Of a DNA stretch of 64,000 bases, positions 18,144 to 30,363 are shown in pieces (the first letter of the stretch is position 1; each line of letters begins with the position of its first letter). The notes under the pieces are model-generated. The model saw nothing but the letters and a program-made list of their open reading frames with translations, did no database searches and had not been told where the DNA came from. Source of the DNA: Actinocorallia populi (lineage in GTDB: Bacteria; Actinomycetota; Actinomycetes; Streptosporangiales; Streptosporangiaceae); contig NZ_PVZV01000002.1 of assembly GCF_002995495.1 (NCBI RefSeq), positions 682,001 through 746,000 of the forward strand. Reading direction: 5' to 3'. The translations under genes were made by a program, and so were the position numbers.

Positions 18144-18596
18144 TCAGGGGTGGTAGACCTGGTAAGCGAGGGTGATCTTTCCCCGCCCGTCGAAGCGCAG
18201 CCCCCACTGCGGGTTCATCTTCGGCTTGTCCACGGCCTTGCGCAGTCCCTTCAGACCGGTCTTACGCATGGCGATCCGACCCTGGGAGTCGGTGTGGAAG
18301 ACGCAGATCGTCGCCTTCTTGGCGAAGGCACGCGTCCGCTTCTTCCCATAGGGCTTGTAGTAGCCGTCGTTGTACTCGGCCTTCTTGTACTTGGCCCAGC
18401 GCCCCGCGAGCGCGCCGTACGGCCGCTTCGCCGACACGGGACGCACGCCGCCGGGCTGGACGTCGATGACCTTCTGGAACTTCGGGGCCTTGACCTTCAC
18501 GGAGCAGATCGTGCCCGCGGCCTCCGCGGGGGCGGACACGACCAGGGGGGCGAGCAGAACGGCCGAGGCGGCCAGAGGGATATGCATCTTCTTCAT
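18144..18596 (-). CDS. Small secreted basic protein
   Basis: A 150-residue exported protein. The signal peptide MKKMHIPLAASAVLLAPLVV is followed by a likely signal peptidase site after APAEA (about residue 26). The mature part is lysine-rich with two cysteines (ICSVKV and TICVFH) that could form a disulfide. The family is not recognised. GGAAAGGA lies about 13 bases upstream of the ATG. The last 20 codons recur, degraded, just upstream of the gene at 18627-18689, so it arose by or survived from a tandem duplication. Confidence 0.75.
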   Translation of the reverse strand: MKKMHIPLAASAVLLAPLVVSAPAEAAGTICSVKVKAPKFQKVIDVQPGGVRPVSAKRPYGALAGRWAKYKKAEYNDGYYKPYGKKRTRAFAKKATICVFHTDSQGRIAMRKTGLKGLRKAVDKPKMNPQWGLRFDGRGKITLAYQVYHP

Positions 18597-27421: not shown

Positions 27422-27661
27422 CATTCCTCCACAAAGCACCAGAAACCCATAGGAAAGATCGGTCACATCATGGCAGCCGCCGGACTCCCGGAGGGCTCCG
27501 GGGAGGGGATGGTCCATCAATGATGTGCATGGATGGTAATGGTGGTGCTATTTCCCTTGCATCCGCAATTTTCGTTATTAATGGGAATAGATCCGGGCGG
27601 TGACGGCGGGGATACCTTAAAAACAACTGGAGATTCCACCCGGCTCTGCAGCCTTTCCTTG

Positions 27662-27696
27662 TAATTTGGTCGACCAATCAACCCAGGAGGTCGACA
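27662..27696 (+). promoter_or_regulatory. Shared leader element, copy 1
   Basis: TAATTT, then GGTCGACCAATC, a short variable part, then AGGAGGTCGACA directly before the GTG. The hexamer and the start codon are 29 bases apart, exactly as in copies 2 and 3. TTGGTCGACCAA here is also a 12-base palindrome. Confidence 0.6.
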
Positions 27697-28287
27697 GTGT
27701 TCGTCAATTACGCCCGTTTCACGGTGGCCGCGGTCCTGACCGCGGGAGCGGTCGCCGCCCTTCCCGGTTCCGCCGCCGCCGCACCCGGCAGAGGCTCCTG
27801 CCTGATGGGGAACTGGACGCTGACCAAGTACGTGATGACCATGAAGGGCAAGGACGTCTCACTCCACACCACCGGCGGCCAGGGCACCCGGCTGCGCGTG
27901 GGCAAGAACGGCGCCGTCTACGACTTCAACCGCTCCAAGCCGGCCATCACCAAGGGCACCCGCTCCGGCGAGGAGGTCGGGCTGTGGTCCAGCTACCGGG
28001 GCAGGCTGTCGCTGAAGTCGAAGTTCCGGGGCGCGCGCTCGGGCGTGCTGACCACCAGGCCCGGCAGCGCGCGCGGCGACGCCAACGGACTGCTCGGCCA
28101 GCTCAAGCCGGAGAAGAAGCTGCTCGCCAAGTACAGCATCGTGGAGACCTACCGCCGCGGGGAATGGGTGGCGCTCATCCCGCACCGCGCGGACTTCCGC
28201 TGCAACGGGCGCACCCTGCTGCTGCAGGCCAAGAAGCGCGACTTCTTCGGCACCAGCACGGTGAAGATCGAGTACCGGCGCGCCTGA
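27697..28287 (+). CDS. Secreted protein, tandem family member 1
   Basis: First of four tandem paralogs. 196 residues with a signal peptide (FTVAAVLTAGAVAALPGSAAA, cleavage near residue 29). The mature part shows the family pattern: CxxxxWxLxxY at its start (CLMGNWTLTKY), GGQGTRLRVGK, VYDFNRSKP, LKSKFRGARSGVL, YSIVETYRRG, a second cysteine in DFRCNGRTLLL, and YRR at the end. Two cysteines near the two ends would pin first and last strands together. A GxW motif after the first Cys recalls lipocalin-like barrels (inference only). GTG start with GGAGG 7 bases before it. Function unknown. Confidence 0.75.
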   Translation: MFVNYARFTVAAVLTAGAVAALPGSAAAAPGRGSCLMGNWTLTKYVMTMKGKDVSLHTTGGQGTRLRVGKNGAVYDFNRSKPAITKGTRSGEEVGLWSSYRGRLSLKSKFRGARSGVLTTRPGSARGDANGLLGQLKPEKKLLAKYSIVETYRRGEWVALIPHRADFRCNGRTLLLQAKKRDFFGTSTVKIEYRRA

Positions 28288-28294
28288 CCGGTCC

Positions 28295-28323
28295 GGGGCG
28301 GCGGCGGCACCCGCCGCCGCCCC
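28295..28323. terminator. Hairpin after family member 1
   Basis: GGGGCGGCGGCGG and CCGCCGCCGCCCC pair perfectly (13 bases) across a 3-base loop. It starts 7 bases past the stop and has no T tract. It suggests that each paralog has its own transcript. Confidence 0.65.
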
Positions 28324-28332
28324 GCCCTCTTG

Positions 28333-28367
28333 TACTTTTGTCGATCATCCCTGCACGGAGGTCGACC
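28333..28367 (+). promoter_or_regulatory. Shared leader element, copy 2
   Basis: TACTTT, then TGTCGATCATCC, a variable part, then GGAGGTCGACC before the TTG start. There are 29 bases between hexamer and start codon. Nearly identical to copy 3. Confidence 0.65.
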
Positions 28368-28967
28368 TTGTTCGCTGCATCCCCCCGCACGTCGTCCGCC
28401 GCTCTGGCACCCGTCGCCCTCGCGGCCGCGCTGGCCGCCGCGGTCCTCGCGCTCCCCGCCTCCGCCTCCGCCGCGGCCAAGCCCTGCCTGCTCGGCAAGT
28501 GGAAGCTCACCAAGTACACCCTCGACGCCAAGGGGCCCGGGTTGAGCACCAAGGCCCGGGGCGGCCAGGGCATCGGCCTGACGGTCGCGAAGAAGTCCGT
28601 GACCTACGACTTCAACGGTTCCAGGCCGCTCGCCGTCAAGGGCATCTCGGACGGTGAGAAGTACGACATGAAGACGACCTACAGCAAGCGCCTGATGCTG
28701 GAGTCCACCCTGAAGGGAGCCAGGAAGGGCTCCCTCGCGCTCAAGCCCAAGAGCGCCAAGGGCGGCGCCAGGGCCGCCATCTCCAGGAACGGCGCCTTCG
28801 TCATGAGCTACAGCCTCGTGCAGAACGTGTACCGAGAGGGAAGCTGGGAGCCCGTCGCCCCGCTCCGCAGCTCCTACACGTGCAATGCCAAGACCGTCAC
28901 GTTCCGGACCACGAGCACGGACGACAGCGGCACCGGCACGATCGTGACGACCTACCGGCGCCGCTGA
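28368..28967 (+). CDS. Secreted protein, tandem family member 2
   Basis: 199 residues, starting at TTG with GGAGG 7 bases upstream; the same arrangement in copies 3 and 4 fixes this start. An Ala/Leu-rich signal peptide ends near ASASA (about residue 37). Family motifs follow: CLLGKWKLTKY, GGQGIGLTVAKKSVTYDFNGS, LKGARKGSLALKPKSAKG, YSLVQNVYREG, YTCNAKTVTF and a final YRRR. It is most similar to members 3 and 4 in the KKSVxYDFNGS block. Exported, disulfide-containing, small and basic; no function is recognised. Confidence 0.75.
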   Translation: MFAASPRTSSAALAPVALAAALAAAVLALPASASAAAKPCLLGKWKLTKYTLDAKGPGLSTKARGGQGIGLTVAKKSVTYDFNGSRPLAVKGISDGEKYDMKTTYSKRLMLESTLKGARKGSLALKPKSAKGGARAAISRNGAFVMSYSLVQNVYREGSWEPVAPLRSSYTCNAKTVTFRTTSTDDSGTGTIVTTYRRR

Positions 28968-28970
28968 GAT

Positions 28971-28989
28971 CGGGCGCTCCGCGCGCCCG
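28971..28989. terminator. Hairpin after family member 2
   Basis: CGGGCGC and GCGCCCG pair across 5 bases, 3 bases past the stop. Shorter than the hairpins after members 1 and 3. Confidence 0.45.
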
Positions 28990-29034
28990 GCGGGGACAGG
29001 ACAACGGTCCCGTCCCTGTTCGTTCCGCTTCCTG

Positions 29035-29069
29035 TACTTTTGTCGATCATTCCGGTATGGAGGTCGACT
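29035..29069 (+). promoter_or_regulatory. Shared leader element, copy 3
   Basis: TACTTT, then TGTCGATCATTCC, a variable part, then GGAGGTCGACT before the TTG start; again 29 bases between hexamer and start codon. Confidence 0.65.
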
Positions 29070-29645
29070 TTGTTCGCAGTATCCACCCGGGCGGCGCTGG
29101 CCGCCGCCCTGGCGGCCGGCGCCGCCCTCGCCCTTCCCGCGGCGGCCTCGGCGGCGCCCGCGAAGCCCTGCGCCGTGGGCAAGTGGAAGCTCGCCCAGTA
29201 CAAGATGGGCCAGCGGGACGAGGGGTACACGGCCAGCGCCAAGGGCGGTGAGGGCATCCGGCTGACGGTCGCCAAGAAGTCCGTCCGCTACGACTTCAAC
29301 GGCTCCAAGAGGGTCGTCACCAAGGGCAGCGTCGCGGGCGACGCCTACGACCTGGTGAGCGTCTACCGCGGGACCCTCAAGGCGAAGTCCGTCCTGACGG
29401 GCGGCAGGAAGGGCTCCCTGTCCCTCAAGGCGCGGAGCGCCACCGGCGACGCCAAGGTGAGCGACACCAACATGGGGGTTCCGCTGGGCTCCTACAGCCT
29501 CGTCAAGAACTACCGCAAGGCCGAGACGGATCCGCTCGTCCCGGTCTACGCCGACTTCACCTGCACCGCCAAGACCCTCAAGCTCACGATGGAGGCCGAC
29601 GGCGCCGGCACCATCGACGTGGCGCTGGTCTACCGGCGCGTCTGA
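29070..29645 (+). CDS. Secreted protein, tandem family member 3
   Basis: 191 residues from the TTG at 29070. The signal peptide ends near ASAAPA (about residue 28). Family motifs: CAVGKWKLAQY, KGGEGIRLTVAKKSVRYDFNGS, VTKGSVAGDAYDL, LTGGRKGSLSLKARSATGDA, YSLVKNYRK, FTCTAKTLKL, and VYRRV at the end. The adjacent fourth copy shares KGGEG, GGRKG and ATGDA with it, suggesting a recent duplication of members 3 and 4. A further upstream ATG (29058) lies in another frame and is not used. Confidence 0.75.
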   Translation: MFAVSTRAALAAALAAGAALALPAAASAAPAKPCAVGKWKLAQYKMGQRDEGYTASAKGGEGIRLTVAKKSVRYDFNGSKRVVTKGSVAGDAYDLVSVYRGTLKAKSVLTGGRKGSLSLKARSATGDAKVSDTNMGVPLGSYSLVKNYRKAETDPLVPVYADFTCTAKTLKLTMEADGAGTIDVALVYRRV

Positions 29646-29663
29646 TCCTCCCGGCGGGGGTCG

Positions 29664-29699
29664 GGCGGGGGCGCGGACGCCGCCACCCGCGCCCCCGCC
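29664..29699. terminator. Hairpin after family member 3
   Basis: GGCGGGGGCGCGG and CCGCGCCCCCGCC form a perfect 13-base stem with a 10-base loop, 18 bases past the stop, without a T tract. Confidence 0.65.
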
Positions 29700-29752
29700 G
29701 GGCGGCACGCTGGAATTCTCCTGAAATCCGATGTTCCTTCACGGATGGCGGA

Positions 29753-29793
29753 TACGTTTGACGATCATCCGCCGCTCCACGGAGGAGGTCGAC
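29753..29793 (+). promoter_or_regulatory. Shared leader element, copy 4 (diverged)
   Basis: TACGTT, then TGACGATCATCC, a longer variable part, and GGAGGAGGTCGAC before the TTG start. The core GATCATCC and GGAGGTCGAC are kept, but the spacing is 6 bases longer than in the other three. Confidence 0.55.
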
Positions 29794-30363
29794 TTGCCCG
29801 CCACCCCGGCCCGCCTGCTGCCGGCCGCCGCGCTGGCCGCGGGAGCCGTTCTGGCCCTGTCCGCCCCGGCCTCGGCCAAGGCCTGCGTCACCGACGACTG
29901 GAAACTCACCCGGTACCGGATGGCGGCCGCCGGCCAGGACGTCCGGATCAGCGCCAAGGGGGGCGAGGGCACCCGCCTCTCTATCACGAAGAAGACGCTC
30001 TCCTACGATTTCACCAAGGCCCGGGAGGTCGTCGCCGAGGGAAATGACAACGGCGACGAATACACCCTGACCAGCGTCTACAAGAAGAAGCTCCACTTCA
30101 AGTCGTCCCTGAAGGGCGGTAGGAAGGGAACCTTGTCGATCAAACGCGGGTCGGCGACCGGCGACGCCACCGTGAAATCCCTTTTCAACACGATCTCGTT
30201 GCGCACGGTCAAGCTCGCCAGGCACTACCGCAACGGCAACGTGGACCCGCTCGTCCCCGCCCGCCCCGCCTTCGCCTGCTCGGGCAGGACCCTGAAGCTC
30301 ACCGCCGTCCTGTCCGACCCCGCGGCCCCCGCCACCGTCACCGCGACCTACCGCCGCATCTGA
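29794..30363 (+). CDS. Secreted protein, tandem family member 4
   Basis: 189 residues from the TTG at 29794. The signal peptide ends at APASA (about residue 27). Family motifs: CVTDDWKLTRY (the Gly of the other copies is Asp here), KGGEGTRLSITKKTLSYDF, LKGGRKGTLSIKRGSATGDA, PLVPARPAFACSGRTLKL and a final YRRI. It keeps both cysteines. No hairpin separates it from the Dabb gene, which has its own promoter. Function unknown. Confidence 0.73.
   Translation: MPATPARLLPAAALAAGAVLALSAPASAKACVTDDWKLTRYRMAAAGQDVRISAKGGEGTRLSITKKTLSYDFTKAREVVAEGNDNGDEYTLTSVYKKKLHFKSSLKGGRKGTLSIKRGSATGDATVKSLFNTISLRTVKLARHYRNGNVDPLVPARPAFACSGRTLKLTAVLSDPAAPATVTATYRRI

Follow-up and report, generated by a model that had tools for sequence, protein, structure and literature searches.

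The window analysed here is a 64,000-nucleotide stretch of the Actinocorallia populi genome (assembly GCF_002995495.1, contig NZ_PVZV01000002.1, positions 682,001 to 746,000 of the forward strand). Four consecutive genes on its plus strand, numbered 1 to 4 (Table 1), encode proteins of 196, 199, 191 and 189 residues, as an earlier note on this DNA had stated. They are paralogues within a lineage-restricted family of very basic proteins that are likely exported and likely fold as a lipocalin-like (calycin) barrel. Our tentative reading is that these are stand-alone secreted binding proteins, built on this barrel and held near the envelope by their charge.

Kinship and distribution of the four proteins

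Genes 2 to 4 are 38–41% identical to gene 1. With only the mature proteins aligned, all six pairs scored 43–53 standard deviations above shuffled sequences (200 shuffles per pair). The likeness therefore does not come from the signal peptide or from composition, and the four genes are true paralogues. The earlier note had proposed a common mature pattern, of which C-x4-W-x-L-x2-Y, GG(Q/E)G, a second cysteine and a YRR ending one residue short of the C-terminus occur in all four proteins. Two elements are less general than claimed: YDF is found in all four but YDFxxS in three (gene 4 has A instead), and G-x-R-x-G is found in all four but the preceding LKG in only two. A single local origin of the array was rejected by a one-clade tree test (approximately unbiased test, p-AU 0.028), yet genes 1 to 3 share a leader. 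The tree that places the array genes apart may be misled by conversion or fast evolution.

Pfam and NCBIfam returned no strong match to a known family, in keeping with the claim that the family is unrecognised. The four proteins matched no Pfam family at E ≤ 10, no NCBIfam family and nothing in PADLOC. Several sub-threshold matches were judged to be chance or driven by the signal peptide. These were Lipocalin_4 (Pfam; 1 of 33 members, E 0.44), the Asp_f_4 allergen (Pfam; 1 of 33, E 0.00085), TMEM151 (Pfam; 2 of 33), a phage Shiga-B profile in PHROGs (gene 2 residues 22–53, E 0.078) and two unnamed PHROGs for gene 4. NCBIfam TIGR03066, a paralogous family of Gemmata obscuriglobus, matched 3 of 33 members below its cut-off (best E 9.5e-6, 25.7 bits vs 93.25). 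Its sole match in the window's genome is a family member (G000:C5:41843, 16.9 bits), and 5 of 14 control genomes likewise gave sub-threshold matches to it. The match of the two strongest members (L049, L058) was lost once the signal peptide was removed, and TIGR03066 was therefore not counted as kin. Sequence searches of the PDB gave nothing useful (best E 0.34–0.52), and gene 3, the one gene run, had no match in plasmid and phage collections. The family was not found in the literature by title or abstract opening, although it may still be in print. Judged by sequence, this appears to be a family absent from the curated libraries searched, with a predicted fold that is itself already known.

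Thirteen copies lie at 9 places in the window's genome. Besides the array there are two copies separated by 1.7 kb and seven single loci. Among 59 other genomes searched at E ≤ 0.001, two of the same genus carry 11 and 7 copies, two carry one each and 55 carry none. A search of 297 genomes of the GTDB family at the same threshold matched 20, and 12 were counted as real (88 bits or more). These 12 are the three of the genus, three others (G003, G415, G474) and six of one further genus (g33); outside the three, each has one clear copy. The remaining eight scored 21–24 bits over the first 70 of 193 profile positions, the signal-peptide region, and were not counted. A profile of the mature part found two strong genomes among 394 of the class, both in the same GTDB family, and among 396 of the phylum matched strongly only in the window's own genome. 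The family, class and phylum searches scored 9–11 candidates per genome, and copy numbers there are lower bounds. Expansion is thus restricted by lineage, with few copies elsewhere in the GTDB family. Weak matches, mostly partial, were not counted as relatives: seven of nine genomes in the class search (17–21 bits), one of two in the phylum search (17.7 bits) and eight of ten in an additional genome search (20–26 bits). One genome, G094, came up in two of the searches with a match covering most of the profile; its frame looks antisense by eye and was likewise set aside.

Predicted fold, export and charge

A structure model of gene 3 has a mean predicted local distance difference test score (pLDDT) of 92.2. 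The published calycin signature is Gly-X-Trp on the first strand and, on the last, an arginine (or lysine) that packs on that tryptophan. Gly-X-Trp is present in 37 of 38 aligned members, with the tryptophan in all 38, and lies within predicted strand 9–22 of the model. Arginine occupies the aligned last-strand column in 35 of 38, within predicted strand 153–162. Model and signature together lend moderate support to the barrel that the earlier note had guessed at, and a calycin fold for the family is likely on these predictions.

The Gly-X-Trp and the last-strand arginine are held in common with the calycin superfamily (lipocalins, fatty-acid-binding proteins and avidins; YxeF of Bacillus subtilis and Blc of Escherichia coli). 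Both of these bacterial examples are lipoproteins, whereas no lipobox was seen by eye in the present family. Unlike these calycins, it is also lineage-restricted, expanded and without a Pfam lipocalin match above cut-off. Among the closest known systems are a lipocalin-like Bacteroides protein (4qrl, BACUNI_01346) and an uncharacterized one (5byp, BACEGG_01585). Neither was matched in the PDB sequence searches, and the present proteins are longer and very basic, with a conserved cysteine pair. AimA and AimB of Aeromonas are, according to PMC6219842, secreted calycin-domain proteins whose sequence relatives are confined to the genus. Like the present, likely exported family they are lineage-restricted, with a calycin fold known only from structure; here the fold is predicted. 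AimA is a two-domain protein that targets an animal host, whereas nothing in the present family points to a host.

Signal peptides were judged by eye and with a simple script, not a trained predictor. The script passed 33 of 40 members, and the proteins are likely exported. Members in two genomes (L110:5974-6435, L114:5975-6436) were called short, starting inside the first strand and lacking a signal peptide; these calls probably reflect a wrong start chosen by the simple gene caller.

All full-length members are basic, with isoelectric points of 9.3–11.7 and net charges of about +6 to +25. The family median is +11.3 per 100 residues (33 of 40 members passing the script), compared with −1.1 for 18 secreted-like proteins from these loci that do not belong to the family, 2 of which exceed +5. 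Lysine makes up 9.2% of residues (median of 40 members, lowest 3.2%) vs 1.7% in 401 other predicted proteins, only 2 of which reach 9%. Third-position GC is 0.944 for family and other genes alike, despite this lysine difference. A search of three genomes for the transglutaminase family PF09017, which might cross-link lysine-rich proteins, had no match, but its control matched nowhere either, and it carries no weight. The window also encodes a secreted-like 150-residue protein outside the family (18144-18596, minus strand) with a mature net charge of about +22 and no Pfam match.

Neighbourhoods, evolution and possible function

The earlier note took the array for a candidate undescribed system. 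Read as a set of cooperating genes, this is not supported, because no neighbour within about 6 kb keeps a constant position from one paralogous locus to another. The neighbour clusters seen most widely among 33 stretches were c1 (in 10), c2 (in 6) and c7 (in 5). By eye these look like common families, and c2 looks like an SDR oxidoreductase, found at 4 of 9 places in the window's genome, at differing distances. Pfam annotation, made on one genome's copy per orthologue group (about 20 neighbours scanned), gave a different setting for each group. In all three genomes of the genus one member (L045, L052, L059) follows a same-strand run with a polysaccharide deacetylase, a GT2 glycosyltransferase and two large proteins, membrane-like by eye and without a Pfam match (L052 copies). 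Another adjoins an amidohydrolase (L048, L057), a third precedes a roadblock/DUF742/GTPase set (L047, L056), and in the further genus g33 the member lies near DNA-repair and NUDIX genes. A fourth, in all three genomes, follows two small membrane-like proteins of 70–71 and 57–60 residues (L051:5514-6473, L060:5595-6556, L044:6219-7268), with a tight gap in L051 and L060 and a wider one in L044. The first of these small proteins has no Pfam match (L051 copy).

The array site is syntenic in both relatives, with a serine hydrolase gene on one side and Dabb and TetR genes on the other. No family member lies in the syntenic interval of either relative (L127, L128). The intervals themselves contain oxidoreductase-like and acyl-CoA-synthetase-like frames on the other strand (named by eye), and content thus differs between conserved flanks.

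In the reading we tentatively prefer, the four genes would be copies within a lineage-restricted family of secreted calycin-barrel binding proteins, each exported by a Sec-type signal peptide. One disulphide, between the cysteine just before the first strand and that in the third-last strand, would probably close the protein, and the calycin Trp-Arg pair would latch the barrel. Through its strongly basic, lysine-rich surface the protein would be retained at anionic polymers of the envelope. The barrel, strongly different between paralogues, may by analogy with the calycin superfamily bind extracellular ligands, either small or polymeric. Each gene appears to work without a fixed partner gene.

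The main rival, somewhat unlikely in our estimate, holds that charge is itself the function. The proteins would cover anionic polymers or link them to one another (acidic exopolysaccharide, polymers of the wall or extracellular DNA), and the barrel would be a stable, ligand-free scaffold. Although identity to gene 3 drops to 19%, all full-length members retain a net positive charge. The charge is also widely distributed: a protein has about 28.5 Lys/Arg and 10.8 Asp/Glu on average, yet just 5 columns are Lys/Arg in at least 70% of rows, a pattern that suits bulk electrostatics better than a single site. The deacetylase and glycosyltransferase run points the same way, but such polysaccharide-type neighbours occur at that group alone. 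Conservation of the Trp/Arg pair, together with the fast change, suggests a role beyond that of a charged brick.

Four orthologue groups are present in all three genomes of the genus and three more in two; the rest are single. In all 12 orthologue pairs compared, from 11 locus pairs, dN/dS (the ratio of non-synonymous to synonymous substitution rates) was above the median of the syntenic neighbours, although these pairs come from just three genomes and so lack independence. Single neighbours exceeded the orthologues at 4 of 11 locus pairs; two further locus pairs had no neighbour for comparison. All homologous neighbours above 50% identity were used, of which a few may be paralogues. Secreted proteins often evolve fast. 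Because of this and the shared genomes, the ratio shows speed, not cause.

Within the array, positive selection was not accepted. Three of six pairs gave dN/dS of 1.05–1.28 (NG86), but 15 control pairs of 35–50% identity reached 0.64–1.16 and synonymous sites in all six array pairs stand at 0.71–1.08 of saturation. The selection for variety proposed in the earlier note is no more than suggested by the fast protein evolution of orthologues; in the array itself synonymous sites are too close to saturation for a reading.

Raised orthologue dN/dS fits relaxed constraint too, there is no fixed partner gene, and the expansion of a dispensable secreted protein could be mostly neutral or dosage-driven. 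We consider this improbable: none of the 33 family matches listed has an internal stop, all three genomes retain four of the orthologue groups, and the cysteines, tryptophan, arginine and charge are nearly fixed. It is more improbable still that the proteins are surface decoys or antagonists from conflict with phages or competitors, with the array a repertoire under diversifying selection. Copy number does vary (13, 11, 7), orthologues change fast and the array is at its site in only one of three genomes; PADLOC, however, had no match for the four and the plasmid and phage collections none for gene 3, and the array dN/dS cannot be trusted. Least likely of all is that the proteins are secreted and inhibit proteases or other enzymes, each paralogue being adapted to its own target. 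This would suit small, multi-copy, fast-evolving proteins with two conserved cysteines and the metalloprotease inhibitors that calycins include (PMC3367933), but there is no Pfam or NCBIfam match to any inhibitor and no protease among the roughly 20 neighbours scanned with Pfam.

Extending the binding-protein reading, a genus of soil actinomycetes might keep a repertoire of 7–13 calycin barrels, secreted and cationic, whose copies diverge under selection once duplicated and each bind a different extracellular ligand or opponent, as a bacterial counterpart of expanded animal lipocalin arrays; we regard this as a doubtful, speculative extension. What the family offers is a new sequence family of probably secreted, probably calycin-type proteins beyond the libraries searched, with a testable trait, high positive charge retained on a fast-changing barrel. 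It is also a natural paralogue set for asking what bacterial lipocalin-like proteins bind, and the gene 3 model is a direct route to structure and ligand screens. Interest would grow if paralogues prove to bind different ligands.

Leaders, hairpins and translation starts

Table 1. Features of the four-gene array (window positions; signal peptides approximate, by eye)
Feature	Position	Strand	Details
Gene 1 leader	27657..27696	+	divergent copy of gene 2/3 leader; 63% to gene 2 copy over 75 nt reaching into gene; 3 mismatches to pattern
Gene 1	27697..28287	+	196 aa; GTG start; mature net charge about +23
Gene 1 signal peptide	27697..27783	+
GC-rich hairpin stretch 3' of gene 1	28288..28335	+	shuffle z −4.8
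Gene 2 leader	28328..28367	+	leader comparison, pattern search
Gene 2	28368..28967	+	199 aa; TTG start; mature net charge about +20
Gene 2 signal peptide	28368..28472	+
Stretch with two hairpins 3' of gene 2	28968..29040	+	shuffle z −2.6
Gene 3 leader	29030..29069	+	near copy of gene 2 leader; 80% over 75 nt reaching into gene
Gene 3	29070..29645	+	191 aa; TTG start; mature net charge about +14; modelled
Gene 3 signal peptide	29070..29153	+
Stretch with long GC-rich hairpin 3' of gene 3	29646..29710	+	shuffle z −3.6
Gene 4	29794..30363	+	189 aa; TTG start; mature net charge about +17
Gene 4 signal peptide	29794..29877	+

In a whole-genome search, exact matches to the leader pattern were confined to the sites ahead of genes 2 and 3. 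With three mismatches it is found at gene 1 and at six unrelated genome sites, and gene 4 has no fit. Hairpins follow three of the four genes, as had been claimed, with none downstream of gene 4 (shuffle z −0.8). They lack U-tracts, and a site scan gave no terminator-like and no promoter-like site. Separate transcription of each gene, also proposed in the earlier note, therefore stays an inference.

Three of the four genes start with TTG, and GGAGGTCGAC lies upstream of the start in all four. The left bound of 27662 given previously falls 35 bases upstream of the first codon of gene 1. The simple gene caller put the gene 4 start upstream, at 29758; we favour 29794 because GGAGGAGG precedes it.
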